Source: Candidatus Nanosyncoccus alces (GTDB taxonomy: Bacteria > Patescibacteriota > Saccharimonadia > Saccharimonadales > Saccharimonadaceae). Taken from it: a stretch of 64,000 nt of DNA. A program made the position numbers and the translations under genes. The stretch is taken from assembly GCF_004138395.1 (NCBI RefSeq), contig NZ_PRLM01000006.1, positions 1 to 64,000 on the forward strand, given 5' to 3'. Below the pieces are notes generated by a model. It saw only the letters and a program-made list of their open reading frames with translations, made no database searches and was not told the origin of the DNA. This document shows, piece by piece, positions 1 through 53,402 of this stretch; positions within the stretch are counted from its first letter, which is position 1, and every line of letters starts with the position of its first letter.

Positions 1-278
1 TTAAGCGCTAAGTATTCTCCGTATGACGAGTCTTTCAAAACCTCAGAAGCCATTATGCGTTTCTTGGCTTCCTCGCGTGGCATGGCGAAGATTTTGCGCA
101 GATGATAACGCGGAGATTGCTTTGGATTAAAGTTGCCGTCGGCGGTGATATCGTAGATATTTTCCGGGTGCTTATCGAAGCCATTTTGCGGTTTGCCTCC
201 GGCAGCAAATCTTCCCCTGTTATCGCGCTTAATCACCGATTGTGTACAATCGGTGGATTTTTTAGTCTTTTTTGCCAT
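1..278 (-). CDS. Phage protein, possibly small terminase-like (C-terminus outside window)
   Basis: The 5' end is complete, with ATG at 276-278. 92 codons are visible before the reading frame leaves the window, so the stop is not seen. The start lies inside the last 17 bp of the upstream DNA methyltransferase, a tight phage-type overlap. The N-terminus is Lys-rich and followed by a Gly/Arg segment (RDNRGRFAAGGKPQNGF), a style common at the start of phage packaging small subunits and related DUF5681-like proteins. No catalytic motif is visible. The gene is certain; the packaging role is inferred only from this segment and from the neighbouring ParB-methyltransferase, which often precedes terminase genes. 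Confidence 0.55.
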   Translation of the reverse strand, partial: MAKKTKKSTDCTQSVIKRDNRGRFAAGGKPQNGFDKHPENIYDITADGNFNPKQSPRYHLRKIFAMPREEAKKRIMASEVLKDSSYGEYLAL

Positions 279-1560
279 TTTTAGCCTCCACTTTTGGCGT
301 AAATTCTTGCCAGCCCTCGTCACTTTCGTCCGGGCCAATTTTATTGATGTAGCGGAAGTAGCGCTTGCGAATTACGTCGCAGAATTTTGGATCTAGCTCC
401 ATGCCGTAGCAGATTCGACCTGTCTGCTCGGCGGCGATTATGGAACTTCCGCTTCCGGTAAAGAGGTCAAGCACGATCTGGTTTGGTCTTGAACTATTCA
501 TCATCGCGTTCGCGCCGAGCGTGACCGGCTTCTGAGTAGGATGAACATAGGTCGTTACCTTATCGCGGTCAAAATCCCAGACTGTTGACTCGTTGCGGAA
601 GTTTTCAAGCATCTTTACGAGATCTTCTTTCTTCATTTCGTTCAGATCTCGGCGCTTAAGACCGAGAACGGTCTTTTTGTCGCGTCCGCCATACCACTTC
701 GCGTGATGGTCTTTACGCCAGAGGTACATACAAGCTTCGTGCGCGTAGTGATAGTCGTAGCGACCGAGCGTCATACCCTTATTCCAGATGAGTTCCTCTT
801 TGTAGACGAATCCTACATCCTCGAGCGCCTTTCTGAACTCGATGTGATTGCTGCTCGCGAACCAGCAATAGACCGCCGCTTCTGGCGATACGAAGCCCTC
901 GGCGGCAGAGAATGCGTCATATAGAAAATCGTAGAGAACATTATCTTTGAGGTCGTCATTCTTGATGGAGCCACATTTTTTACTCGTATAGTTCACACCA
1001 TAAGGCGGATCGGTGTAGAGCAGACTAGCTATCTGGCCGTTCATGAGTTTGGTGACATCTTCAAGTTTTGTAGAATCGCCACACATCAGTCGGTGTTCGC
1101 CGAGTTGATAGACCTCGCCGTATTTACTAATCGGCTCATTTTCTTCATCTAACTCCGGTGCGATATCTTCCTCGATCTCTTTTTCCGACTCATCTAGCTC
1201 AATATCTAAACCCCAGTCGGAGAGGTCGACATCTCCCCATTCTTCGGCCAGCTTGTCCATATCCCACTCGCCATTATTGACGTTATCGCGAATGACGATT
1301 TCTCGCTCGCGTTCTTCGGTCAGGCCTTTCAAAAGATAAGTTGGCACTTCTTTTAGGCCTAGAACTTTTGCAGCATCATATCGTTGATTACCGGCAAGGA
1401 TTACAAGTTCGCCGGTACGATCGGAGAGAAGAAGTGGCCGCGCTTCGAAGTAGTCCGGATTATCTTTGATGGACTTTACAAGAATCTGAAAATCCTCGCT
1501 ACTGATTTTGCGCGGATTATTTTCTAATTTTCTTAAATCTTCGAGCTTTCGATATTCCAT
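262..1560 (-). CDS. ParB-domain DNA methyltransferase (N6-adenine or N4-cytosine type)
   Basis: This 432-aa protein joins a ParB/sulfiredoxin-like N-terminal domain (about residues 1-110, with the motif GNQRYDAAKVLG) to an SAM-dependent DNA methyltransferase. The catalytic motif DPPYG is near residue 184 and the SAM motif DLFTGSGSS near residue 385. A DPPY motif points to methylation of an exocyclic amino group, not C5. The ATG at 1560 is chosen because an AGGAT-type ribosome site precedes it; an in-frame start further up is possible. Such fusions are common in phages, beside terminase genes, and are thought to mark phage DNA. An acidic linker (about residues 115-150) separates the domains. 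It is translationally coupled to both neighbours. Confidence 0.85.
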   Translation of the reverse strand: MEYRKLEDLRKLENNPRKISSEDFQILVKSIKDNPDYFEARPLLLSDRTGELVILAGNQRYDAAKVLGLKEVPTYLLKGLTEEREREIVIRDNVNNGEWDMDKLAEEWGDVDLSDWGLDIELDESEKEIEEDIAPELDEENEPISKYGEVYQLGEHRLMCGDSTKLEDVTKLMNGQIASLLYTDPPYGVNYTSKKCGSIKNDDLKDNVLYDFLYDAFSAAEGFVSPEAAVYCWFASSNHIEFRKALEDVGFVYKEELIWNKGMTLGRYDYHYAHEACMYLWRKDHHAKWYGGRDKKTVLGLKRRDLNEMKKEDLVKMLENFRNESTVWDFDRDKVTTYVHPTQKPVTLGANAMMNSSRPNQIVLDLFTGSGSSIIAAEQTGRICYGMELDPKFCDVIRKRYFRYINKIGPDESDEGWQEFTPKVEAKNGKKD

Positions 1561-1723
1561 TGATATCCTTTCCGTCCTGAACTCGGACTTTATATTCTTT
1601 ACCGTAAACATTTATTTCGGCTTCGCCGTCTTTAACCTTTTTTGTCACGTCGATAGCCTGTTTGTGGATATGAACGACTACTTGGCCGTCGTTATCTGAT
1701 TTTGCGTTGATGATTTCTATCAT
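1517..1723 (-). CDS. Small phage protein of unknown function, 68 aa
   Basis: The ATG at 1723 follows a strong ribosome site (AAGGAGATCTT). The product is a small basic protein whose C-terminus is rich in Arg and Lys. Its 3' end overlaps the start of the ParB-methyltransferase by 44 bp, and its 5' part overlaps the upstream gene by 32 bp, so these genes form one minus-strand operon. I do not recognise a family. The size and position suggest an accessory phage gene. Confidence 0.55.
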   Translation of the reverse strand: MIEIINAKSDNDGQVVVHIHKQAIDVTKKVKDGEAEINVYGKEYKVRVQDGKDINGISKARRFKKIRK

Positions 1724-2120
1724 AAGATCTCCTTTCTTGATATTTCCGACTAGATTCTTCGAGAATCTCAATTAAGTCGGCGATGGTTTCCGGTGGGAAC
1801 TTCCCACGATATCCAACAAACTGCATCTCAAATCGTTTCCGGAAGCCATCTTCGGCTTCATCGGTGACGATTCCAACTTCGATTGCAATTCGGTTTAGTG
1901 GCAGATAGAAAAGGTACAACCTTTTACCGCGTACTCGCGCCCAGAAGTCTTTATTTAGCCCTCGGTCGACTAAAATATCGTCTAGCGCATACATGGTTTG
2001 CTCTAGAACTTCTAGATACCGATACTTGGTTATGTATCTACCTTTACGGGTAGCAAAGCGGTCACAAACGACACGCGTGGTCGTCAGCGTCTCTAGCTCC
2101 CGGAGTGAAATGTTTTTCAT
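1692..2120 (-). CDS. Phage protein of unknown function, 142 aa
   Basis: The start is placed at ATG 2120, preceded by AAGGAATACGG. It is the first gene of the minus-strand operon that runs to the window edge (this gene, the 68-aa gene, the ParB-methyltransferase, the packaging-like gene). The protein is rich in Arg and aromatic residues, soluble, and without Cys clusters or membrane segments. No family recognised. An alternative start further upstream, at 2171, would reach into the divergent promoter region and is less likely. Confidence 0.55.
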   Translation of the reverse strand: MKNISLRELETLTTTRVVCDRFATRKGRYITKYRYLEVLEQTMYALDDILVDRGLNKDFWARVRGKRLYLFYLPLNRIAIEVGIVTDEAEDGFRKRFEMQFVGYRGKFPPETIADLIEILEESSRKYQERRSYDRNHQRKIR

Positions 2121-2200
2121 TCCGTATTCCTTGTTTAGTTGATAAAAAAAGAGGCTCGTTATGAGCCGCAATTGATTACTTTATATTATACCATAAATGT

Positions 2201-2206
2201 TATAAT
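2201..2206 (+). promoter_or_regulatory. -10 element of the alpha/beta-hydrolase gene
   Basis: A perfect TATAAT ends 7 nt before the ATG at 2214, so transcription should begin at or next to the start codon (leaderless mRNA). No convincing -35 is seen. Confidence 0.6.
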
Positions 2207-2213
2207 TAGAGTA

Positions 2214-2834
2214 ATGATGCGTAATACGATAATTAGCTACGTTCAAAAAGGCGCTTACTTTGATGACGATGTTAATATTGAGATATCAATTCATGACGGC
2301 ACTAGTGACGAGCTATTATTAATTATTCCTGGCGTGGATGGTTCTTTGGATGGATACAAGAATAAATACCTACAAATTGCAGAAAATACCAATCTGAACT
2401 ATGGCGCTACTGTAATTCGAATGAGTAATCCATACAACCTAGGAGGATACCACCTCAGAAATTTATTTGAGGTGTTAGACTTTGTCGAGAAGAATTATGA
2501 TATGACTCAAAAACGCTTGCATGTCTTAGGCCATTCGCTTGGCGCTTATATGATAGGCTCTGTTGCTTCTATGTATGATTATATTGACAAGATCTTACTC
2601 ATAAATCCGGCTACTTTACTTGACCTCAATGATTATAAAAGCTTAAAGTTACGCCCAAAAGACTCAAACATTATTTTGATTGGGGAAAAAGATCCCTCCG
2701 TGGAACATATAGAATTATTTAAGGATTTGGGTACTGTAAATATTCAGCGAGGAGCAGATCACCATTTCTCCGGTTCATCGTTTGAAGATTTTCTTGAGGC
2801 CACGTCAAAATATATTTTCAAAAATGTGATATAA
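2214..2834 (+). CDS. Alpha/beta-hydrolase-fold protein carried in the prophage
   Basis: 206 aa. The nucleophile elbow GHSLGAY fits the G-x-S-x-G motif of serine hydrolases. An Asp in the strand ending GEKDPS and a His in GADHHFSG are good candidates for the rest of the triad, in the usual order. A hydrophobic strand and oxyanion region (LLLIIPGVDG) precede the elbow. There is no signal peptide, so it should act in the cytoplasm. The substrate cannot be told; esterase, lipase and peptidase are all possible. It is transcribed divergently from the packaging operon and alone, from its own leaderless promoter, as expected of a cargo gene expressed in the lysogen. Confidence 0.75.
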   Translation: MMRNTIISYVQKGAYFDDDVNIEISIHDGTSDELLLIIPGVDGSLDGYKNKYLQIAENTNLNYGATVIRMSNPYNLGGYHLRNLFEVLDFVEKNYDMTQKRLHVLGHSLGAYMIGSVASMYDYIDKILLINPATLLDLNDYKSLKLRPKDSNIILIGEKDPSVEHIELFKDLGTVNIQRGADHHFSGSSFEDFLEATSKYIFKNVI

Positions 2835-2902
2835 TAACCATAAGCAATAAGTTCATGTGTACCCTTATTGCTCCAGATTGCGGCTCTATATGCCGATTTT
2901 TT
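2830..2902 (+). promoter_or_regulatory. Promoter and structured leader of the lysis cassette
   Basis: TATAAT at 2830-2835 overlaps the end of the hydrolase gene. The expected transcript starts near 2842 and opens with a 9-bp hairpin (2843-2851 with 2864-2872). A second hairpin follows, CGGC/GCCG, then six T (2880-2902), which looks like a terminator. It may simply end the hydrolase transcript, or act as an attenuator ahead of the lysis genes. Confidence 0.45.
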
Positions 2903-2930
2903 ATTGGCCAACTAAATCTAGGAGCAAAAT

Positions 2931-3182
2931 GTGACATCGGAAAACGATCTTGAAGTCAAAGTCGCTAAACTCGAGACGAAGATGGATACGATTATCGATA
3001 CCGTCGCGCTTATCAATCGCAAGTTCGACGAAATTATGGACGATCGTGTTACTCGTAGGGAGCTAGACGAATTTAAGGCCGAAGTTAAGCGCAGTCTACT
3101 AACGCGAACGCTTCTCACTACGGCTCTAACTTGTATAATTACCGCGCTTATCAGTTATGTGATCGCGGATCTACTTAATTAA
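2931..3182 (+). CDS. Coiled-coil membrane protein, XhlA/holin-accessory-like
   Basis: 83 aa starting at GTG 2931, with AGGAG just upstream; the overlapping ATG two bases earlier runs straight into a stop. Residues 5-55 are a heptad-rich charged coiled coil, and residues 58-80 form one transmembrane helix. This layout is that of XhlA-type hemolysin/holin-accessory proteins of phage lysis cassettes. It lies 9 nt before the endolysin gene. Its role would be to help holin-dependent release of the endolysin. Function inferred from architecture and neighbours. Confidence 0.65.
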   Translation: MTSENDLEVKVAKLETKMDTIIDTVALINRKFDEIMDDRVTRRELDEFKAEVKRSLLTRTLLTTALTCIITALISYVIADLLN

Positions 3183-3191
3183 GGAGTATTT

Positions 3192-4148
3192 ATGCTAAAA
3201 GGAATTGACATTTCGCATTGGCAAGCGAATCTCGATATCGCCTCTACTGGCGCACAATTCGTTATTTGTAAGGCTACTCAGGGGACGACTTTTGTCGATC
3301 CATCCTGCGACCGGCATTACCAAATCGCAAAAAGGCTAGGACTGAAACTCGGTGTCTACCACTACGCTTCGGGTGGTGATCCTATTGCCGAGGCTGATTT
3401 CTTTGTCCGTAATATCAAAGGATATATCGGCGAGGCTATCCTCATTCTTGACTGGGAGAAGAATCAGAATGGCCGATATCACGAGCACGCTTCTTGGTGC
3501 TTGAAGTTCTTGAACCACGTTAAGGAATTAACTGGAGTGAAGCCTCTCGTTTATATGAGCGCCAGTGTTATCAAGGCTGCAGACTGGTCATCTGTCGTAA
3601 ATGGTGATTATGGCCTTTGGGTAGCCGGTTATCCAGACAATCGTGATAGTTGGGATATTCCTCAATTCATCTGGGATGTTTCGCCTTGGAAGTTCTACGC
3701 TATTTGGCAATACACTAGCTCTGGTGGTCGTTTGGATCGCGATGTCTTTATGGGTGACGCGGCGGCTTGGGATAAGTATGCCAACCCATCTGGCAACCCG
3801 GCTCCATCACCAGCGCCTACTCCGGCTCCAGCTAGAAAATCCAACGAAGATTTGGCTACTGAAGTCATTCGTGGCGACTGGGGGAATGGTCAGGAACGCA
3901 AGGATCGTCTAACCGCGGCCGGATATGATTACGGCGCTGTTCAAAATATCGTTAACCAGAGGCTTGCCGGTTCTTCAGGCGCCTCAACTGCCGAAAACTG
4001 TTCCGCGGTCTATTATACCGTCCAAAAAGGCGACACGCTTTGGGGAATCGCCCAGAAGTATGGAACGACCTATCAGGAGATTGCGAGGCTTTCCGGTATT
4101 CCTGATCCTAACAAAATCTATCCGGGCCAGAAAGTGAGGGTGAAATAA
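3192..4148 (+). CDS. Phage endolysin: GH25 muramidase with Cpl-7 and LysM domains
   Basis: 318 aa. Residues 1-195 are a glycoside hydrolase family 25 lysozyme: GIDISHWQ at the N-terminus carries the first catalytic Asp, and LILDWEKN carries the D-x-E pair. A Pro/Ala linker (about 200-215) follows, then a Cpl-7-like repeat (about 217-258, with [13 protein letters not shown]), then a C-terminal LysM domain (about 272-318, [17 protein letters not shown]). It should cleave the glycan strand of host peptidoglycan at lysis. There is no signal peptide, so export depends on the adjacent holin. Two different wall-binding modules on one endolysin suggest strong wall anchoring. Confidence 0.93.
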
Positions 4149-4369
4149 TGTTACCAGATAAGGTATATGAAGCCCTGCGTTGGCTTGTGGCCGTTTTCAT
4201 GCCGGCACTCGGTGTATTCTTTGCTACGCTCGCTGAGGCTTGGCATTGGAATTTGCCGACTGAAGCTATACTTACGACTCTGTCGGCCGTAGAGCTCTTT
4301 CTAGGCGCTATTTTCGGCATTTCCAAGGTAGTTTATGACCGAAAAGAAAACCCCGAAAAAGACTTGTAA
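4148..4369 (+). CDS. Phage holin, small two-helix type
   Basis: 73 aa with two hydrophobic helices (about residues 10-32 and 37-58), a short turn, and a charged C-terminal tail (DRKENPEKDL), as in r1t/phi-LC3-type holins. The ATG overlaps the stop codon of the endolysin by one base, so the two are translationally coupled. It would form membrane lesions that free the endolysin. The family call rests on size, topology and position. Confidence 0.8.
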   Translation: MLPDKVYEALRWLVAVFMPALGVFFATLAEAWHWNLPTEAILTTLSAVELFLGAIFGISKVVYDRKENPEKDL

Positions 4370-4397
4370 AAATCTCAAATTAAGGTTAAATACAAAC

Positions 4398-4477
4398 ACC
4401 TGCGAGGATCCGGCCGCGATTTGTGGAACCGGTCGAGCAGGCCGCTCCTCTCGATGCGGTATCGCGGCCTCGCAGGT
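4398..4477 (+). ncRNA. Strong GC-rich hairpin, candidate structured RNA or DNA site
   Basis: A nested hairpin lies between the holin and the next genes. Pairs are 4398-4405 with 4470-4477 (8 bp), 4412-4420 with 4461-4469 (9 bp), 4428-4431 with 4458-4460 plus the adjacent base, and 4433-4437 with 4450-4454. The stretch is much more GC-rich than its surroundings and has no coding signature. No T-tract follows, so it is not an ordinary terminator. The strand of any RNA is uncertain; plus is assumed from the neighbours. Confidence 0.5.
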
Positions 4478-4499
4478 TATAGATTAACTAAGGAGAATT

Positions 4500-4604
4500 A
4501 TGGAAATACAAGTTAAAAAAGTGCAGGATCTACCAGATCCGCTAAATATTACCAAGACCGATGAGTTCTTCGAGGCGCTCGAGAACGATGAGGTAGAGTT
4601 TTAG
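4500..4604 (+). CDS. Very small phage protein, 34 aa
   Basis: ATG 4500 follows a good ribosome site (AAGGAGAATT). The peptide is acidic, with an F-x-x-A-L-E-N-D-E tail. Its stop is 7 nt before the start of the next gene, and that gene's ribosome site (TAGGAGGAC) overlaps this stop. Coupling and the ribosome site support a real gene. No family known. Confidence 0.5.
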   Translation: MEIQVKKVQDLPDPLNITKTDEFFEALENDEVEF

Positions 4605-4611
4605 GAGGACT

Positions 4612-4965
4612 ATGGAAAATAATCAGAAAACTGCCATCCAAGAGATGGATGAAACAATTAAGCGCCGCAACGACGAAAAGCTCGACGAGGCGGTTAAGCT
4701 CGTCAATGATGCTATTGTGGCCGAGTATAAACACCTAGAGGAGATCGCCAAGACCGAAGAAAGCGATCCTATTATGATTGAGGGTGAAACTACCACCGGC
4801 TACGACTGTCACATAATGGTTGATCCGAAAGATGTCGCAAAGATTGCCTTGGAGTATAACTATCCAGTTTGGCATATTCTACAGCAGGATTACCCTGATG
4901 GTATGTGGGAAGACTTAGGTCGAAAGTTCGGGCTGGCGACTGTCTATTCGATTATTGATTTATAA
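4612..4965 (+). CDS. Phage protein of unknown function, 117 aa
   Basis: ATG 4612 with TAGGAGGAC upstream. The protein is acidic; residues 1-55 look alpha-helical and charged, and the C-terminal half is more globular (GYDCHIMVDPKDV, then YPVWHILQQDYPDGMW). No recognisable family. It sits in a plus-strand run with the 34-aa gene and the zinc-ribbon gene, spaced 7-9 nt apart, so it is probably co-transcribed. Confidence 0.6.
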   Translation: MENNQKTAIQEMDETIKRRNDEKLDEAVKLVNDAIVAEYKHLEEIAKTEESDPIMIEGETTTGYDCHIMVDPKDVAKIALEYNYPVWHILQQDYPDGMWEDLGRKFGLATVYSIIDL

Positions 4966-4974
4966 GGAGAAGTT

Positions 4975-5322
4975 ATGAGCTATATTGGAATCTGCGAATA
5001 TGTGATCGGGATTATTCATGACAAAGACATCTGGTATTATGTCGGCGAGAAAGATGCGAATGGAAAGCGTCTGCGCACGGACGAGCGATACTCGTCGTTC
5101 TTGGTTGACGCGAGGCGCTATGACGATTTGGATGTTTTACGATGGGAACTTGAGAGGCTTCCAAAAACTCTTACTTATAAAATTCTGGAAATTCAGCGAT
5201 GCCCAAAATGCAAGAAAGAGTTCACAGAATATCCGGCGCTCTCTCGTGAAGATAACGAGACCGAGATTTGCCCAGAATGTGGAGTTAAGGAGGCAATGGA
5301 TGTATATCTAAAAAATCAATGA
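4975..5322 (+). CDS. Phage protein with C-terminal zinc ribbon, 115 aa
   Basis: ATG 4975 after AAGGAGAAGTT. The N-terminal two thirds have no recognised fold. Near the C-terminus, CPKCKKEF and CPECGV give two C-x-x-C knuckles about 25 residues apart, a typical zinc ribbon. Nucleic-acid or protein binding is possible but not shown. It ends the small-gene run after the holin. Confidence 0.6.
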   Translation: MSYIGICEYVIGIIHDKDIWYYVGEKDANGKRLRTDERYSSFLVDARRYDDLDVLRWELERLPKTLTYKILEIQRCPKCKKEFTEYPALSREDNETEICPECGVKEAMDVYLKNQ

Positions 5323-5354
5323 TAGTTATTACTGTGAAATTAATCATTCTATGG

Positions 5355-5360
5355 TATAAT
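5355..5360 (+). promoter_or_regulatory. -10 element of the C5-methyltransferase gene
   Basis: Perfect TATAAT about 30 nt before the ATG at 5390. The start codon also has a GGAGGA ribosome site, so this mRNA has a short leader. Confidence 0.5.
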
Positions 5361-5389
5361 AATAATAAGTTAATATTTTGTGGAGGAAT

Positions 5390-6535
5390 ATGGAAGCTAA
5401 ACGCACAATTCGTGTAGCGAGTCTGTTTGCCGGTATTGGTGGTATTTGCCAAGGCTTTCTTGATTCGAAAAATAAAAAAGCAAAGTACGAGATAGCATGG
5501 GCTAATGAAATAGATCCTTACGCCTGTGAAACTTATAGAAAGAACTTCTCTCACCCATTAATTGAGGGGGATATCAACTTCGTTCTTCATCCAGAAAATA
5601 GTGATGACATCGAAAAATATACAGAGCTACACGAACAGGCTTTATCTGAACCTATAGATGTTATTAATGGCGGTTTTCCTTGCCAGGCATTTAGTATCGC
5701 TGGCGAAAGAAAAGGCTTCGATGACGAGCGTGGCAACTTATTTATGTCATTCATCGATTTAATTAACCAACTTGATGAAAAATTCCATAAAAAGCCAAGG
5801 GTACTATTTTTAGAGAATGTGAAGAATCTTAAAGCGCATGATCATGGAAGAACCTATAAGGTAATTAAATCTAAACTAGAAGATTGCGGATACACCGTCA
5901 AAGAAGCGGTGCTCAATACTATGTCCTATTCTGAGCTTCCGCAAAACAGAGAACGAATTTATATTATGTGTTTTCTTAATAAAGATGATGCAGACAAATT
6001 TACTCTATATGATAATTTAGATAAGTTCAAAAGGACTTTTGATGCAACTGAAAGGGCAACGCAGATCAAAAACATCATCGATTATTCTGTTGATGATCCA
6101 AAATATTTTTATACAAAAGAAAAATACCCTCACTATTTTATGACCGAAGAAGAATTCGCCAAGAATGGAAGTAAGGATGGAATTCGCATTAATCTCGAAG
6201 AAGATATTACTGAGATGTATCAATTCTACCAACTGCGTCGCGGTCAATATGTAAGAAAGAATCAAAGTAACGTCTGTCCAACATTAACTGCGAATATGGG
6301 GACCGGCGGACACAACGTTCCTCTTATTCTAACACCAAATGGTATACGCAAGCTTACTCCAGAAGAAACATTTAGGCTTCAAGGTCTACCGGCTGGTCGT
6401 GGGTATGTATTCCCGACATCCTTTAATGGAACTAAAACTTATGGAAACAGTCATCTTTACAAGCAAGCTGGAAATGCAGTCTCTGTTCCTGTTATTAAAA
6501 TGATCGCAGAACAAATTTTGGACATCATAAAATAG
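5390..6535 (+). CDS. dcm: DNA (cytosine-5)-methyltransferase
   Basis: 381 aa from ATG 5390 (ribosome site TGGAGGA). It shows the ordered C5-methyltransferase motifs: SLFAGIGGICQGF (motif I, SAM binding), GGFPCQAFSIAG (motif IV, catalytic Cys), FLENVKNL (motif VI), QNRERIYIM (motif VIII), and near the end QAGNAVSVPV (motif X). The target-recognition part lies before motif IX (LRKLTPEE). It methylates cytosine in a short site. The convergent gene next door resembles a Bsp6I endonuclease, so together they look like a type II restriction-modification pair, possibly for a GCNGC-type site. The site is inferred from family only. Confidence 0.92.
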   Translation: MEAKRTIRVASLFAGIGGICQGFLDSKNKKAKYEIAWANEIDPYACETYRKNFSHPLIEGDINFVLHPENSDDIEKYTELHEQALSEPIDVINGGFPCQAFSIAGERKGFDDERGNLFMSFIDLINQLDEKFHKKPRVLFLENVKNLKAHDHGRTYKVIKSKLEDCGYTVKEAVLNTMSYSELPQNRERIYIMCFLNKDDADKFTLYDNLDKFKRTFDATERATQIKNIIDYSVDDPKYFYTKEKYPHYFMTEEEFAKNGSKDGIRINLEEDITEMYQFYQLRRGQYVRKNQSNVCPTLTANMGTGGHNVPLILTPNGIRKLTPEETFRLQGLPAGRGYVFPTSFNGTKTYGNSHLYKQAGNAVSVPVIKMIAEQILDIIK

Positions 6536-6543
6536 TCACTAGT

Positions 6544-7095
6544 TTACAATAGCGAAACTTTTTTAACTGGCTGAAGCCCTTTTGCGTTAATTATTCTGCT
6601 TTTAATAGAGAAGCGCGGTCTGCGCCCTTGAGCTTGTTGGTCTGCAAATGTTTCGTTTTTCGCTTGATTCAGGACTAAGCCGTAGACATCTTCTGAGTCT
6701 ATCTTGTAAAACCATACATTTCCATCGACATAGCCATTCGGAGCAAAATCAGCATAATATAGTAGATCCCACGTTGAAGTTGGACCGAATGATGTGCAGT
6801 CATTTGGAATCGAGGCCGATTTGACTTGTACTCCCTCGCCAGTATCTTTAATGACGCAGTCATAGGAATGCGCTCCGGGTTCAGCATTAGTACGTACGGC
6901 ATTAAATGCCAAACAAAAAAGTGCTTCACTAAAAACATCTGGGACGTTCAAACTCCTGCCTTTCAATGCATTCAGGTCAGAATTCATATTTTGCCATTTT
7001 TTGAAAATATCTTTTAGTTTTAGAAAGTCATTATCGTCAAATTCGTCACCAGAGACGACGATGCCATTTTTTAATTTTACTTTTACTGTTCTCAT
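6544..7095 (-). CDS. Probable type II restriction endonuclease, Bsp6I-like
   Basis: 183 aa. Segments such as GRSLNVPDVFSEALFC, VKSASIPNDCTSFGP and GRRPRFSIKSRI resemble the Bsp6I endonuclease family (RE_Bsp6I), which partners C5 methyltransferases. A candidate PD-(D/E)xK core is D-x(8)-V-Q-V-K-S around residues 80-93. It is convergent with the methyltransferase, stops only 9 bp apart. It would cut unmethylated DNA at the site its partner protects. The family match is from memory of conserved segments, so I hold it as probable. Confidence 0.68.
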   Translation of the reverse strand: MRTVKVKLKNGIVVSGDEFDDNDFLKLKDIFKKWQNMNSDLNALKGRSLNVPDVFSEALFCLAFNAVRTNAEPGAHSYDCVIKDTGEGVQVKSASIPNDCTSFGPTSTWDLLYYADFAPNGYVDGNVWFYKIDSEDVYGLVLNQAKNETFADQQAQGRRPRFSIKSRIINAKGLQPVKKVSLL

Positions 7096-7098
7096 TTT

Positions 7099-8241
7099 TT
7101 AGCTCCTTTCGATTATTTTATTTAATTCATTCATTAGTTCACATTCTGCGTCTGGAATAAATTTAACAAGCTCTTTCTGTAAGAAATATTCACTACCGCC
7201 ACCTCTTTCGAGAATAGCGAAGTCTACTTTGTAGTATTTGCCTTTTTCTAACTTCGTATTATTCAGCATATTATCTTCTTCGGAAAAAAGATACATGGAA
7301 TTTCTAGATTTTTTAACGACTGAAATCTTATCCGGATTATCTGCGTAAAAATCGAGTGATTTGTAGTGGACTTTATTTCCGGTTTTTATGTAATACGGGA
7401 TGCCATTATCATCTATATTGTCGAACCAGTTTTTATTAAAACGATACAATCCCCAAGACATTTTACTGCAATATTTTGATAAGGGTGATATCTCGTCGTT
7501 TTTTATGCCTCTGACCGATTCTCTCTCTTCAATATTTTTAATATTTTGAATCCCAACTTTCTCATCACAAAAAGTTGAACATTTCATAAAATCTGAGGCT
7601 TTTGCTATTTTTATAAGCTGAATCGTACCAAGTTCATCCCCAGGATCGTGCACTTTTACCGGTTCGCCCAGTAAGCCATTTTCGTTAGAAATAACAAAGC
7701 TTTCATTATTCATTGTCATTTCTTTGTAAATTTCCTCAGAGTACATTTCTGGGATAAAATATGGCAAAAGGTAGTCTATTCTGAGGTCGTTTTCAACCAT
7801 AATGAGGTATTTATCGTCATAACCTTGATTTCTCAAAGAGACCATTTTCTGTTTTTGTTTTTTAAATGTTTTTATCTCAATCTGTGGCATTCCGGACACT
7901 GCAGTCCACTTTTCATCAAAAATGGAAAAAGGTATTACTTTTTTATCTACCTTAATTCCGATTAAATCTGGAGCAATACCTGCTTTTCGAGGATCATATG
8001 AATAAAAATCAGAAATTGGTTCGACTATTTTATCCGTTTTTAGTTCCGGAAACATAATCTTTTCAAACACAATCCTTTCCGGAAAAGTATTGATCCATCT
8101 ATCAAAAATTCCGCCCATCAAGTCACCTTTGGAGCTTAATGATCCGGCCATTGACGAGCCTTTTTGTTTCTGAATAATACCTAAAACAAAATAAATAGTT
8201 TTAAGTATATCTGTTTTTCTGACTGTTATGATCTTGTTCAT
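7099..8241 (-). CDS. Nuclease-like protein downstream of a restriction-modification pair
   Basis: 380 aa with start chosen at ATG 8241 (upstream AAGGG and a TATAAT at 8267-8272); longer in-frame starts would read through that promoter. An N-terminal region contains IAPDLIGI, followed about 35 residues later by PQIEIKTFKKQKQK, a spacing and pattern like the D...E-x-K core of PD-(D/E)xK nucleases. I do not recognise the family. It lies 3 bp upstream of the Bsp6I-like gene in the same direction, so the two are co-transcribed. It may be a second endonuclease, a specificity subunit, or another defence protein. Confidence 0.6.
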   Translation of the reverse strand: MNKIITVRKTDILKTIYFVLGIIQKQKGSSMAGSLSSKGDLMGGIFDRWINTFPERIVFEKIMFPELKTDKIVEPISDFYSYDPRKAGIAPDLIGIKVDKKVIPFSIFDEKWTAVSGMPQIEIKTFKKQKQKMVSLRNQGYDDKYLIMVENDLRIDYLLPYFIPEMYSEEIYKEMTMNNESFVISNENGLLGEPVKVHDPGDELGTIQLIKIAKASDFMKCSTFCDEKVGIQNIKNIEERESVRGIKNDEISPLSKYCSKMSWGLYRFNKNWFDNIDDNGIPYYIKTGNKVHYKSLDFYADNPDKISVVKKSRNSMYLFSEEDNMLNNTKLEKGKYYKVDFAILERGGGSEYFLQKELVKFIPDAECELMNELNKIIERS

Positions 8242-8383
8242 AATGTAGCCCTTGCTATCTATTAACATTATATCATAATCTCCTAAAAATTGAAATAGAT
8301 GCCAAAATATGTTATGATATATGTATGTCATTCTATGACATATTTGATAGCATCCTAGGCAATACGATCGTGGATCGAATTCG

Positions 8384-8412
8384 TTGACTTATAATTATAC
8401 TTAAGTTATAAT
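8384..8412 (+). promoter_or_regulatory. Sigma-70-type promoter of the integrase operon
   Basis: TTGACT at 8384-8389 and TATAAT at 8407-8412, spaced exactly 17 bp. An almost perfect palindrome centred on CTTAAG lies between and over the boxes (AATTATA...TATAATT), a plausible operator for a phage regulator. Confidence 0.7.
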
Positions 8413-8439
8413 TAGTATTAACGATATTGCGTATAATTC

Positions 8440-8490
8440 GGCTCCGCCTTAGGAGCCAAAGCTCCTATGACGAAAAATAGGAGCTTTTTT
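8440..8490 (+). promoter_or_regulatory. Attenuator-like leader with mutually exclusive hairpins and terminator
   Basis: Four segments can pair in alternative ways: segment 1 (8440-8445) with 2 (8452-8457); 2 (8450-8456) with 3 (8461-8467); 3 (8459-8467) with 4 (8478-8486), the last followed by T's at 8485-8490. Segments 2 and 4 carry the same heptamer TAGGAGC. The 3:4 hairpin is a Rho-independent terminator; the 2:3 hairpin would prevent it. The layout is that of a transcription attenuator ahead of the 99-aa gene and integrase. Confidence 0.6.
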
Positions 8491-8600
8491 AGGACTTCCA
8501 GCAATTCTTCTCCGGAAAGGAATTGCGCACTAATATTAACTAATCTCTCGTGGAGGTACGAGTGCGTGTATTTTTGCGAGATTCTTCAGGAGCGGTAATT

Positions 8601-8900
8601 ATGAACAGTCCAAGCCTCAATGACATTGTCAATGAATATTCCTCTAAGAGGAATAACAATGACAATGTACAAAGACCAAAAACGCGTGATCAAATAGAGC
8701 GTGCTGATAGAATTGCGGATACGGTGTGTCGCAAGATTGGTAGCACTGGTGCGCGAGCGTTCTATTGTAAGGCCGCCTATGAGCTATCAGAAGATCAAAT
8801 CTATAGTTGTGTCGAAATAGCCCTAAAAGGTCGTTGCCCGGTCAAATATCTGTCTTGGTTACTATCTCATCAATTAAGAACTAACGCTAGACGCAGTTAG
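8601..8900 (+). CDS. Small prophage protein upstream of integrase, unknown function
   Basis: 99 aa from ATG 8601, preceded by AGGAG 6-10 nt upstream; an in-frame GTG at 8550 is possible but has a poorer context. The N-terminus is polar and Asn-rich; the C-terminal half is basic and helical (ARAFYCKAAYELSEDQI, then GRCPVKYLSWLLSHQL). It is co-transcribed with the integrase, 37 bp away. Position suggests a DNA-binding helper such as an excisionase, but nothing in the sequence proves that. Confidence 0.55.
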   Translation: MNSPSLNDIVNEYSSKRNNNDNVQRPKTRDQIERADRIADTVCRKIGSTGARAFYCKAAYELSEDQIYSCVEIALKGRCPVKYLSWLLSHQLRTNARRS

Positions 8901-8937
8901 TTTGAGAAACTGGCTTCGCCTAGCAGAAAGGTGAATA

Positions 8938-9843
8938 ATGAAGTCAGATATTTCATTAACTGAGGCTTTCGAGCTATTTCGGGTGGAGCAAATCGTCTAC
9001 AAAAACCAGTCAGATCGCACCGAGGAAATGCATGGTCTGGCACTTAAGCAACTTCTCGAGTTCTTCGGAGAAGATATCATGATGTCGGAATTAACATTCG
9101 ACAAAATTCGTAAATGGAAAGATTGGCTTTCTAAGAATAAAAAGCCAAATACCGTTCGCGGATATATTATTAAATTAAGAGTTGTCGTTAAGTATTGCCA
9201 ACTAAAGGGTTACCCGGTCATCAATCATGAGTTAATCGGGATTCCTAAGCGAGACGCAACGGTTGTCGATTTCCTTGAAGTTGATGAGGTAAAAAAGTTG
9301 ATCGAGGCGTCGTTCAAAAAATCGGCAGGGTATTCGCGTTTTAAAAGATATAGAAATAGAGCAATACTTTCGCTCTTATTCAGTTCCGGGATCCGTAACG
9401 GAGAATTATGCGCAATCAATGCTTGTCAGATTAAGCCCGGGGATAATACCTTTACGATTATCGGGAAAGGTAATAAGGCCAGGCTTTGTTTTATGGATGA
9501 TGAAACCCATAAATACATTGACGAGTATATGGCGCTAAGAAACGATAATTCGCCGGCTCTCTTTATCTCTGAACAGAATAAGGGCGCTAGGATCTCAAAC
9601 GAGGTGGTACAAATGGTAGTGAAAAACTGCGCTGAAAAGGCAGGATTACGTAAATCTGTTCATCCACATACCTTGCGTCATTCTTTTGCTACCGATCTAC
9701 TCCGTAATAACACTAATGTGGTTTACGTTAAGGAATTTCTTGGTCATGAGAGCATCCAAACCACGATGGCTTATACCCATGTCGTAGATGAGGATTTACG
9801 CGCGATTCATATGTCAAAGCATACGACCGTCGCAGTGGCATAG
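8938..9843 (+). CDS. int: Tyrosine recombinase / phage integrase, XerC/D-like
   Basis: 301 aa from ATG 8938 (ribosome site AGAAAGGTG). Residues 1-90 form a SAM-like core-binding domain. The catalytic domain shows the family's residues in order: Arg in SSGIRNGELC, Lys in GKGNKARL, HPHTLRHSFA (His-x-x-Arg), LGHESIQTT (His), and Tyr in AYTHV. It lies about 250 bp from a displaced tRNA-Thr 3' end, so it very likely catalyses integration into and excision from that tRNA gene. A terminator follows its stop. Confidence 0.92.
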   Translation: MKSDISLTEAFELFRVEQIVYKNQSDRTEEMHGLALKQLLEFFGEDIMMSELTFDKIRKWKDWLSKNKKPNTVRGYIIKLRVVVKYCQLKGYPVINHELIGIPKRDATVVDFLEVDEVKKLIEASFKKSAGYSRFKRYRNRAILSLLFSSGIRNGELCAINACQIKPGDNTFTIIGKGNKARLCFMDDETHKYIDEYMALRNDNSPALFISEQNKGARISNEVVQMVVKNCAEKAGLRKSVHPHTLRHSFATDLLRNNTNVVYVKEFLGHESIQTTMAYTHVVDEDLRAIHMSKHTTVAVA

Positions 9844-48564: not shown

Positions 48565-48831
48565 ATGAAGAAACTAGTTTTGATGAAATACCTAAATGCG
48601 AAATATATACCAGAGTATCGCTCTATGCCTAAGATAGATGTACCCGACAACGAAGTCGATAATCGTACATCACTCATGGAAGTAGAGGCGGAAGAAATGC
48701 TCTATACAGGCGAAATGAAAGAGCTGCTCTGGATTAAAAGTCTAAATGAAGAAGAATACAAACAACTGATGAAAGACGAATCTGACGCGAGAACCAGGAA
48801 GTTAGATGAACTAGATAAAATGCTTAGCTAA
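48565..48831 (+). CDS. Unknown small acidic protein
   Basis: 88 aa, charged and helical, rich in Glu and Lys, with no membrane segment or Cys. The start could also be ATG 48583. There is no good ribosome site, so it may be leaderless. No family recognised. Confidence 0.4.
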   Translation: MKKLVLMKYLNAKYIPEYRSMPKIDVPDNEVDNRTSLMEVEAEEMLYTGEMKELLWIKSLNEEEYKQLMKDESDARTRKLDELDKMLS

Positions 48832-49337: not shown

Positions 49338-50261
49338 CTATCTATTATCCTTTGTCTTTTCAATGAAAACATCGCCGTCTGATGGATTATACCAACATTT
49401 CCAAACGCTTTTATCTTTATTCCACATAAGAATCTGATAGTAATTGCCTTCCTGCACAATGTTTGTAGAGGCATAATCGGTTAGATGAACTCCCGTCTTT
49501 TGACCGTATGCCCAACATGCGTCCGCTATGGTATCTATGGACGGTTTATCACTTGATTGATTTGAAGTTGAAGCAGACGTAGGTTCATTTTCCTCAGTCG
49601 CTTCAGTATTGGTCTTCTCATCATCTTGCCCGCTAACAGAGCCTTTATATTCGTTGCCAACATAACAGCTATCCAAAGTCTTTGCGTAGGCATTTGCGCC
49701 GTATTTTTTACAAGCACCATGTGCCTCTCGCCATGCTTTTTCTTCTTCCGTTTCCTCCTTTTGGGGTTCTTTCTTTTCGCATGCCACTCCACCATCTTTA
49801 AATTGGTATATATAATCATCTCCGAGCTGCTTGCAAGCATCTATATTCTTTTGCTGATTTGAAGTTATATGTGTCGTTTCAAAAGAAATTTTGTCGCCCT
49901 TATGCAAGCCATAGCCATTAGAAGTGTATCTATTATAATCATAGTCAATTTCTCCATTGGCTTTGTAAACGGTACTAACAAAAGTGACAGTCTGTTCATC
50001 CTGTGCATTTTTATCGTAATATCCATTCTGGTAAATATCATACAAAATACCTTTTTCTTCTGCTAAGCTGATAGCTTGATTAATAGTTAAACCAGTAAAA
50101 TCGTCACGAGTTGCTACTGGTTTATTAGCGAAATATGCTATTGCAACAAACAGAATAATAAGAAATCCGACTATGCCGCCGACGGCAAACCTTTTATTTA
50201 GAGCTAATTGTTTGATGCTCTTGTGGGCACTTGGACCAGATTTTTTTGGTATGCTTTTCAT
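49338..50261 (-). CDS. Membrane-anchored protein with PASTA-like segment
   Basis: 307 aa. A basic N-terminus and a transmembrane helix (about 29-48) precede an outer region. The part about 55-80 (FTGLTINQAISLAEEKGI) has the shape of a PASTA repeat. Several Cys residues (ACKQLGD, VACEKK, GACKKYG, DSCYVG) are spaced as in a disulfide-rich domain; an acidic Ser/Thr linker follows, and the C-terminal domain (about 240-300) is Trp-rich. ATG 50261 has GAAAGG upstream. Its long, highly structured leader is described separately. Function unknown; possible wall binding. Confidence 0.6.
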   Translation of the reverse strand: MKSIPKKSGPSAHKSIKQLALNKRFAVGGIVGFLIILFVAIAYFANKPVATRDDFTGLTINQAISLAEEKGILYDIYQNGYYDKNAQDEQTVTFVSTVYKANGEIDYDYNRYTSNGYGLHKGDKISFETTHITSNQQKNIDACKQLGDDYIYQFKDGGVACEKKEPQKEETEEEKAWREAHGACKKYGANAYAKTLDSCYVGNEYKGSVSGQDDEKTNTEATEENEPTSASTSNQSSDKPSIDTIADACWAYGQKTGVHLTDYASTNIVQEGNYYQILMWNKDKSVWKCWYNPSDGDVFIEKTKDNR

Positions 50262-50288
50262 ATTTTACCTTTCTCCCCTACAACAAAA

Positions 50289-50402
50289 TTAGCGACTATG
50301 TGCAGTCGCTAAACTTATCAGCTCAGGCTTTTGACTCTGGCTGGCACATAGCCGCCTTCTTTTGTTCAAAAGTCTGAAACTTTAAAACTGATAAGTTTAG
50401 CA
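50289..50402 (-). ncRNA. Structured 5' leader with potential kissing loop
   Basis: A minus-strand TATAAT at 50409-50414 predicts a start near 50402. Helices: P1 50309-50321/50388-50400 (13 bp), P2 50324-50334/50366-50376 (11 bp with one mismatch), P3 50339-50342/50350-50353, and P4 50291-50296/50305-50310. The loop of P4 and the loop of P3 share 8 complementary bases (50296-50303 with 50344-50351). The translation start follows about 30 nt later. This looks like a cis-acting RNA; no known riboswitch class was recognised. Confidence 0.6.
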
Positions 50403-50478
50403 TCTACTATTATACCTTATTTGGTATAAAAAATAAATGGCTTATGTCATTATAACGGTTACATTGAAAATATTTTTA

Positions 50479-50775
50479 TCAATCCGTTATTTGTAGATAG
50501 TACTGCAAATCCTCTCCTTTCCAATTATCAAGCACGTAATCGTGATACTCAGTCCAAAGGTCGGAGTATGGCTTGCTCAGAGTATTGTTCCGCTCGTGGT
50601 AATACCAGCACCTATGATTAAGCACCATCGAGAGCTCGGTACCGTATACACGATCGTCACCCCACTCCTGCCTAGCCCTCTCATAAGTATCTTTAACCGC
50701 CCCAAATCCGAACTTATCGGCAATAGTGAAGTCCTGCCAGAAAGTAGTCTGACACTCGTAGTCTAAGAGTCGCAC
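50479..50775 (-). CDS. Unknown small protein, end of three-gene operon
   Basis: 98 aa with a GTG start at 50775, ribosome site GGAGG about 8 nt before it. Soluble, rich in Tyr, Trp and Asp (RCWYYHERN, DLWTEYHDYVLD). It overlaps the preceding gene by 13 bp. No family recognised. Confidence 0.5.
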   Translation of the reverse strand: MRLLDYECQTTFWQDFTIADKFGFGAVKDTYERARQEWGDDRVYGTELSMVLNHRCWYYHERNNTLSKPYSDLWTEYHDYVLDNWKGEDLQYYLQITD

Positions 50776-50993
50776 CTAAAAACCTCCATAAAATTATTTA
50801 TCGAGTCGAAGTTATCTTCTATTGCCGACTTGTATTCGGAATAATGACGGATCGTGTCCGCGTAATCTTTCGCACTCAGTCCAGCCTCAATCATCGCAAG
50901 CCTTGCTTCCATAATCATGTTATACTTACCGCTTCTACGCACTAGTTCGTAGCGATAGAAGTTTTGGCAAATATCGGGCTGAAGTAGTTTCAT
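50763..50993 (-). CDS. Unknown small protein, middle of three-gene operon
   Basis: 76 aa from ATG 50993, with GAGGTGAT directly upstream. Mostly helical and charged. It overlaps its neighbours by 4 and 13 bp, so the three genes are translationally coupled. Unrecognised. Confidence 0.5.
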   Translation of the reverse strand: MKLLQPDICQNFYRYELVRRSGKYNMIMEARLAMIEAGLSAKDYADTIRHYSEYKSAIEDNFDSINNFMEVFRCDS

Positions 50994-51193
50994 ATCACCT
51001 CGCAACTACTAGAAGTCCTAGTCCATAAATGCTCAACTATTTCACCATCAGCCCAAAGCCTACGCTCTAGTCTGGCGAGGTAATTCATCCTGTCTTCGAG
51101 ATTTGGAAACTGTAGGTCATCGACAATCTCGAAGTGATATTCGCCATCTGTACCGAGATATTTCATGGTGGTGATGGATTTTGGCATTCTCAT
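50990..51193 (-). CDS. Unknown small protein, first of three-gene operon
   Basis: 67 aa. The start could be ATG 51193 or ATG 51187; no clear ribosome site. YLGTDGEYHFEIVDDLQF followed by a helical, Arg-rich part. The three-gene set (67, 76 and 98 aa) resembles small accessory genes of phages or plasmids. Unrecognised. Confidence 0.45.
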   Translation of the reverse strand: MRMPKSITTMKYLGTDGEYHFEIVDDLQFPNLEDRMNYLARLERRLWADGEIVEHLWTRTSSSCEVI

Positions 51194-52784: not shown

Positions 52785-53402
52785 ATGCAAAAGAAGTATC
52801 GTCTTACGAAAGAAACCATTAATGCAGATGGACATACTCTCCATCGGATTGAGGCTTTGATAGATATTCCTGAATGGGGTGTTAAAGTCGGCGATCTTGG
52901 CGGATGGATAGAGAAAAAGAGAAATCTCTCACATTACGGAACAGCTTGGGTTGCTTATGAAGCATGGGTTTACGGTAATGCTGAGGTTTACGGAGATGCC
53001 CAAGTTTCCGGAGAGGCTCGTGTTTGCGGTTATGCTCGTATTTACGGCAACGCAGTAGTCTACGGAAACAGCTATGTCTACGACTACGCTTGGGTATATG
53101 GTAACGCTAGAGTATACGGAACTGCACATATTGCCGGTAAAGCTCAAATCTATGGTAATGCCAAAGTCTTTGATAAAGCATTGGTTTATGATAAAGCGAT
53201 TGTCTACGGAGCTTCTAGGGTTTATGGAACCACTTGGGTTCACGAAGATGCTATCGTTTATGGTAAAGCTCGTGTTTACGGTAAGGCATGGGTATATGGC
53301 AGTGCTGAGATTTTTGGCACGGCGCGAGCATTTGGCGATGTCCGTATATCCAATAACGCAAAAATATCCTGCGGTGAACATTCACACGGTAGGCGACAAT
53401 GA
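52785..53402 (+). CDS. Hexapeptide-repeat left-handed beta-helix protein
   Basis: 205 aa. A short N-terminal domain (1-45; LIDIPEWGVKVGDLGGWIE) precedes about 23 hexapeptide units of the form (V/I)-Y-G-x-A-x, such as VYGNAEVYGDAQ, ending in a His-rich tail. Such repeats form a left-handed beta-helix seen in phage, plasmid and polymer-forming proteins (YdcK-like). No acetyltransferase catalytic His is clear. ATG 52785 follows GGGGGTGCACC. The repeats give periodic DNA, so the opposite strand also stays open; that is not a gene. Confidence 0.8.
   Translation: MQKKYRLTKETINADGHTLHRIEALIDIPEWGVKVGDLGGWIEKKRNLSHYGTAWVAYEAWVYGNAEVYGDAQVSGEARVCGYARIYGNAVVYGNSYVYDYAWVYGNARVYGTAHIAGKAQIYGNAKVFDKALVYDKAIVYGASRVYGTTWVHEDAIVYGKARVYGKAWVYGSAEIFGTARAFGDVRISNNAKISCGEHSHGRRQ

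Follow-up and report, generated by a model that had tools for sequence, protein, structure and literature searches.

Analysis of a 64,000-nucleotide stretch of Candidatus Nanosyncoccus alces (contig NZ_PRLM01000006.1, positions 1 to 64,000; hereafter the window) revealed that its minus strand encodes a folded RNA element belonging to a family of such elements in Saccharibacteria. Judged by the sequences collected here, the family is a previously uncatalogued, strongly conserved RNA family confined to this clade. It probably represents a class of cis-acting transcription attenuators, in which the 3′ arm of a terminator hairpin (T) would choose between the terminator and a pseudoknot (PK). Conservation, covariation and the placement of the element relative to promoter and gene support the original prediction that this is a new cis-regulatory RNA in which two loops make contact.

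Table 1. Features of the RNA element and its surroundings in the window
Feature	Position	Strand	Basis or remark
-10 box TATAAT	50409..50414	-	Sequence; same position in most copies (6-7 nt to P1 in 63/83)
P1 5′ strand GCUAAACUUAUCAG	50388..50401	-	First base is the inferred transcription start
P2 5′ strand CAGACUUUUGA	50366..50376	-	Pairing and covariation in copies; two double changes versus G027
PK 5′ strand GCGGCUAUGUGC	50344..50355	-	Doubles as part of P3 hairpin and loop
P3 hairpin GGCGGC UAUGU GCC A GCC	50339..50356	-	Alternative to PK; single-sequence folding
P2 3′ strand	50324..50334	-	Pairing in aligned copies
P1 3′ strand CUGAUAAGUUUAGC	50308..50321	-	End overlaps T 5′ arm
T, putative intrinsic-terminator hairpin UUAGCGACU GCACAU AGUCGCUAA	50289..50312	-	Terminator scan
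PK 3′ strand GCACAUAGUCGC (T loop and T 3′ arm)	50292..50303	-	Not in search models
U-run UUUUGUU	50282..50288	-	Sequence; U stretch nearly invariant across 83 copies
Shine-Dalgarno region AGGGGAGAAAGG	50268..50279	-	Sequence
Downstream gene for a 307-aa protein with a single N-terminal transmembrane stretch and no Pfam family	49338..50261	-	
Upstream 98-aa ORF	50479..50775	-	Same strand as leader; syntenic in G027

Helix P1 is 14 bp long and encloses P2 (11 bp including one A-C mismatch) and P3 (GGCGGC paired with GCC-A-GCC); the prediction had described an outer helix around two further helices correctly, but had counted 13 bp and left the strand unstated. Hairpin T was recovered independently by the terminator scan, and the ATG start codon of the 307-aa gene (at 50261) lies 20 nt past the U-run. 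Single-sequence folding of 135 nt of the minus strand gave z = -4.2 (0/200 shuffles), while the plus-strand value of z = -7.1 is a reflection of the palindrome. Elsewhere in the window, the ORF at 52785-53402 (+) encodes a protein built of beta-solenoid repeats of the YdcK type (Pfam PF18836, E 3e-19). Towards the start of the window (262-9843), translations inspected by eye include DNA methylase-like ORFs, a lysozyme/LysM-like ORF and a tyrosine-recombinase-like ORF (8938-9843), which suggests a mobile or defence region there.

A plain DNA similarity search found a single relative, in G027, a second species of the same genus. The two leaders are 90% identical and have the same neighbours, and the downstream proteins are only 34% identical. 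Among the substitutions in P2, four form a couple of compensatory double changes, one from C-G to U-A and one from U-A to C-G; two P2 pairs are broken in either the window species or G027. Upstream of the leader, the DNA of two small ORFs (50479-50775 and 50990-51193, both minus strand) is 80-83% conserved in G027, more so than the downstream membrane protein, and a convergent 88-aa ORF (48565-48831) is also syntenic there. The ORFs around the leader appear to form a small conserved island.

To collect further copies, a first covariance model was made from the window and G027 sequences and searched against 174 genomes of the same genus, which gave a dozen; a model made from 12 copies then raised the number to about 75, distributed over 47 of the 174 genomes. 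The window's own genome carries four (C6:50282-50403, C2:77418-77535, C6:228258-228372 and C5:10792-10911). Matches were obtained in 31 of 393 genomes of an order-wide sample, all within the window's family and spread over 9 genera, and in 2 of 380 genomes of a phylum-wide sample, both again within that family; all three genome sets include the window's genome, and the covariance-model E-values are rough. A scan of 84,980 bacterial and archaeal species with a DNA signature taken from the switch region matched 25 contigs, all titled Candidatus Saccharibacteria (from which the clade name used here is taken), and all 25 scored as full members, with bit scores up to 112. No copy was found outside the window's family in the order and phylum samples.

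The original prediction had proposed a covariance-model search of CPR and phage genomes. The models found many Saccharibacteria copies; no match to viral contigs was obtained with the patterns tried. Three family patterns gave zero matches in the IMG/VR viral contigs; they were stricter than an initial viral pattern, whose three matches were unrelated and due to chance. DNA similarity searches of phage and plasmid collections were likewise negative, the single plasmid match being a 30-nt chance piece. Two weak R1 matches (G164:C17 and G020:C18) were judged false, having no promoter and no PK. Identical 136-nt leaders occur in two species of the genus (L057 in G105 and L058 in G211) ahead of nearly identical genes, and this identity suggests a recent cassette transfer.

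Conservation of the pairs was assessed in a main alignment of 83 copies, 82 of them distinct. Across the 2925 cells of P1, P2 and PK, 97.1% are paired, compared with 68.5% in shuffles and at most 42% in slid controls, and the covariation score is 0.728 versus 0.194 in shuffles (0/500) and at most 0.105 in slid controls. Covariation, named in the prediction as a check, is abundant in the homologues, with both sides changed in 30 of the 37 pairs. P1 is 98.6% paired over the 82 distinct copies (12/14 pairs changed on both sides) and P2 93.9% (11/11), counts that lean towards structure because these two helices were modelled during alignment. PK was left out of the models from which the alignment was built, and its counts are thus an independent test: its 12 pairs are 94-99% paired (99.2% and 94.1% for helices 3 and 4), with 7 changed on both sides. 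When 12 copies were aligned by hand, all P1 pairs proved to be kept despite many changes, and PK paired in 143 of 144 cells against a shuffle mean of 129 (0/5000). The 6-bp core of T is 97.1% paired in the copies, and 91-99% of P3 pairs are kept. With these bit scores and the independent test by PK, the existence of the family is very well established. Chance is excluded, since the G027 leader has been kept with compensatory changes despite 34% protein identity and 83 copies covary. Roles at the DNA level, as a recombination site or a MITE, were set aside: the compensatory changes seen inside individual copies indicate a role as RNA.

The 8-nt loop-loop complementarity noticed at the outset is real, but it is only the core of a longer pairing: the PK strands are complementary over 12 to 13 nt, and the 3′ strand takes in the 3′ arm of T. 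At least 10 uninterrupted nucleotides of this complementarity are present in 81 of 83 copies, and in many copies PK reaches through an A-run into the U-run, giving 16-20 bp. In addition, the loop of P3 is complementary to that of T, and the last bases of P1 are the first bases of T. PK, P3 and T share strands and cannot all coexist in full; therefore the RNA is predicted to be bistable. Before a penalty for the pseudoknot is applied, the median duplex energy of PK is -21.5 kcal/mol, against -14.8 kcal/mol for T plus P3; with the penalty taken as several kcal/mol, the two states are roughly balanced. Hairpin T is of low stability in some copies (-4.2 kcal/mol).

Changes in the 3′ arm of T track the PK 5′ strand more closely than the T 5′ arm. 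An A-to-G change in the 3′ arm is accompanied by U-to-C in the PK 5′ strand in 28 of the 37 copies having both letters, and five U-to-C changes keep a G-C pair with the PK strand while making A-C with the T 5′ arm. Read as comparative evidence, this pattern is characteristic of a strand that pairs functionally with two partners. As a predicted 12-bp pseudoknot overlapping the 3′ arm of the terminator, PK is then the putative switch element, and more than a tertiary clamp. Between the U-run and the Shine-Dalgarno sequence, 46 of 83 copies carry a third strand complementary to the T 3′ arm (mostly UGCGGC or GCGACC), where 9.4 were expected from shuffles; examples are L119, L107 and L084, where it stands just 5′ of the Shine-Dalgarno sequence. 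It is absent from the window copy and from G027. This strand may hold the T 3′ arm after read-through, or may provide a link to translation. Outside the helices, the conserved letters of the 83 copies are mostly those of the A-run, the U-run and the loops, and no conserved unpaired core hinting at a ligand pocket was seen in the alignment.

In 63 of 83 copies, a -10 hexamer precedes the first base of P1 by 6-7 nt. This spacing puts the inferred transcription start at the first base of P1, at the edge of the element and not inside it, in keeping with the prediction that the transcript starts at the outer helix. At the other end, a Shine-Dalgarno sequence and the start of a same-strand ORF (at least 50 aa) follow within 60 nt in 67 of 81 copies, compared with 6.7% of random positions, and the median distance to the ORF start is 26 nt. 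Three features of an attenuating leader are in place: a putative promoter directly upstream, a putative terminator hairpin with a U-run before the gene, and a conserved exclusive alternative, PK.

The shape of the RNA suggests an on/off gate for transcription. From sequence comparison we infer the transcription start, termination at T, antitermination by PK and the existence of a trigger. Transcription would begin at P1, and P1 and P2 would fold first, displaying the P3 hairpin. The emerging 3′ arm of T would then have two mutually exclusive partners, the nearby T 5′ strand or the PK 5′ strand in the P2 loop. Pairing with the former would complete hairpin T which, with the U-run, would cause termination; pairing with the latter would form the 12-bp pseudoknot, withdraw the arm from the terminator and let the polymerase read into the gene. 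Because the P3 and T loops are complementary, a kiss between them is likely to be the first step of the exchange, and a cellular signal would tip the balance. The order of promoter, bistable fold, terminator and gene favours this attenuator reading, and since T has the form of a textbook terminator and is conserved separately, PK is preferred as the state that allows read-through.

An attenuator of the opposite sense, in which the pseudoknot (12-20 bp, with the A-run pairing the U-run) would itself be the terminating or locking structure, is unlikely but deserves consideration. In its on-state, P3 would hide the PK 5′ strand and P1 would keep T short. Duplexes upstream of a U-run can cause termination, and PK adjoins the U-run and in many copies extends into it; the weakness of T in some copies also fits. 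However, this arrangement has no need of hairpin T, which is conserved in its own right, and a 12-bp knot closed by P1 and P2 would have to wrap with the polymerase still attached. The promoter, compact fold and terminator all lie within about 120 nt and the 3′ U-run can be paired, as might be expected of an independent small RNA that has a promoter and terminator of its own, its ends sealed by P1 and PK, and the genes reached by leaky read-through. We consider this improbable: the Shine-Dalgarno sequence and same-strand ORF within 60 nt (67/81 copies versus 6.7%) argue against it, as do pairing partners that covary within each copy. A constitutive stabiliser or insulator of the mRNA 5′ end, in which P1 at +1 would block 5′ decay with no switching, accords with the start of P1 at the inferred first nucleotide, yet it leaves the conserved U-run, T and the competing PK unexplained and is even less probable. 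Translation-coupled attenuation through a leader peptide, for which NUG-C at the 5′ end of 57 of 83 copies might speak, can practically be dismissed, as ORF lengths are scattered from 2 to 61 codons, the PK strand falls equally in three frames (19, 19 and 17) and no short ORF is conserved in a fixed register with the switch.

On the preferred attenuator reading, the controlled genes are diverse. The 82 downstream proteins fall into about 41 otherwise unrelated groups. Sixty representatives include EcoRI-type adenine methyltransferases, type III Mod-like methylases, an MmeI-type enzyme, a GIY-YIG family resembling restriction endonucleases, T4SS pilins, a glycosyltransferase and oxidoreductases, and most of the 60 have no Pfam family. 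That restriction genes are enriched among the targets is an impression, judged without a genome-wide background. The prediction had placed the element before a membrane protein with a PASTA-like segment; the window gene does have one transmembrane stretch, but there is no specific association with such proteins, transmembrane proteins making up 33 of 82 downstream proteins versus 56 of 137 background ORFs, and the PASTA-like segment found no Pfam support even at E = 10. At four loci (L093, L096, L112 and L133), the leader precedes an EcoRI-type methyltransferase gene, behind which lies a small ORF of a shared type (NIRPKYQREFIY), which we take to resemble DUF262/GmrSD proteins; the two possibly form a restriction unit.

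It is conceivable, and we propose it tentatively, that a clade-specific switch with a pseudoknot stealing the 3′ arm governs a dispersed accessory-gene regulon in Saccharibacteria, answering one common physiological signal. Such a regulon would comprise restriction-modification enzymes, pilins, and surface and orphan proteins, and the signal might, for example, be host contact, DNA uptake or the speed of the polymerase; the targets point to no particular trigger. Gene regulation in the reduced, host-dependent Saccharibacteria is almost uncharted, and an RNA family with up to four copies per genome ahead of otherwise unrelated accessory genes offers a testable regulon. The leader could also be used as a marker for horizontally spread or variable genes. 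A review of tools for Patescibacteria regards riboswitches as promising for expression control in these organisms (PMC11665869). If the switch reading is true, the element is a native candidate part for that use.

The prediction had recognised no known class, and comparison with Rfam 15 agrees: at gathering and relaxed thresholds no family matched the window element, with only chance matches, and 12 loci holding other copies gave only tRNAs. No earlier description was found in the freely accessible literature searched; the main text of a study of RNA motifs in human microbiomes (PMC8040213) makes no mention of TM7, Saccharimonad-, pseudoknot or restriction. With T-box and ANTAR-type antitermination leaders the element would share the regulated read-through of an intrinsic terminator, but it has no Rfam T-box match, no tandem ANTAR-type hairpins and other gene targets. 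The put RNA of phage HK022 is a promoter-proximal structured RNA that binds the polymerase in cis and lets it pass later terminators. The element is likewise promoter-proximal and structured, but its terminator is part of the RNA, and no sequence or Rfam relation to put was seen. In the cobalamin riboswitch, the L5-L13 kissing loop joins an inner loop to a hairpin 3′ of the core, and that hairpin forms the expression platform; the element resembles it in the predicted kissing 3′ hairpin but has no B12-box-type core, Rfam match or B12-gene targets. Close in layout are also the terminator/antiterminator leaders, such as the pbuE adenine riboswitch and those of the trp type, which share the 5′ leader between promoter and gene, the hairpin with U-run, a mutually exclusive alternative pairing and a gene directly after. 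In those leaders the 5′ arm of the terminator is captured through a plain hairpin, whereas here the competing strand would take the 3′ arm and loop through a pseudoknot, an architecture new for attenuation studies. Unlike attenuating riboswitches, moreover, the element has no recognised aptamer, and the same RNA stands before dozens of unrelated genes.
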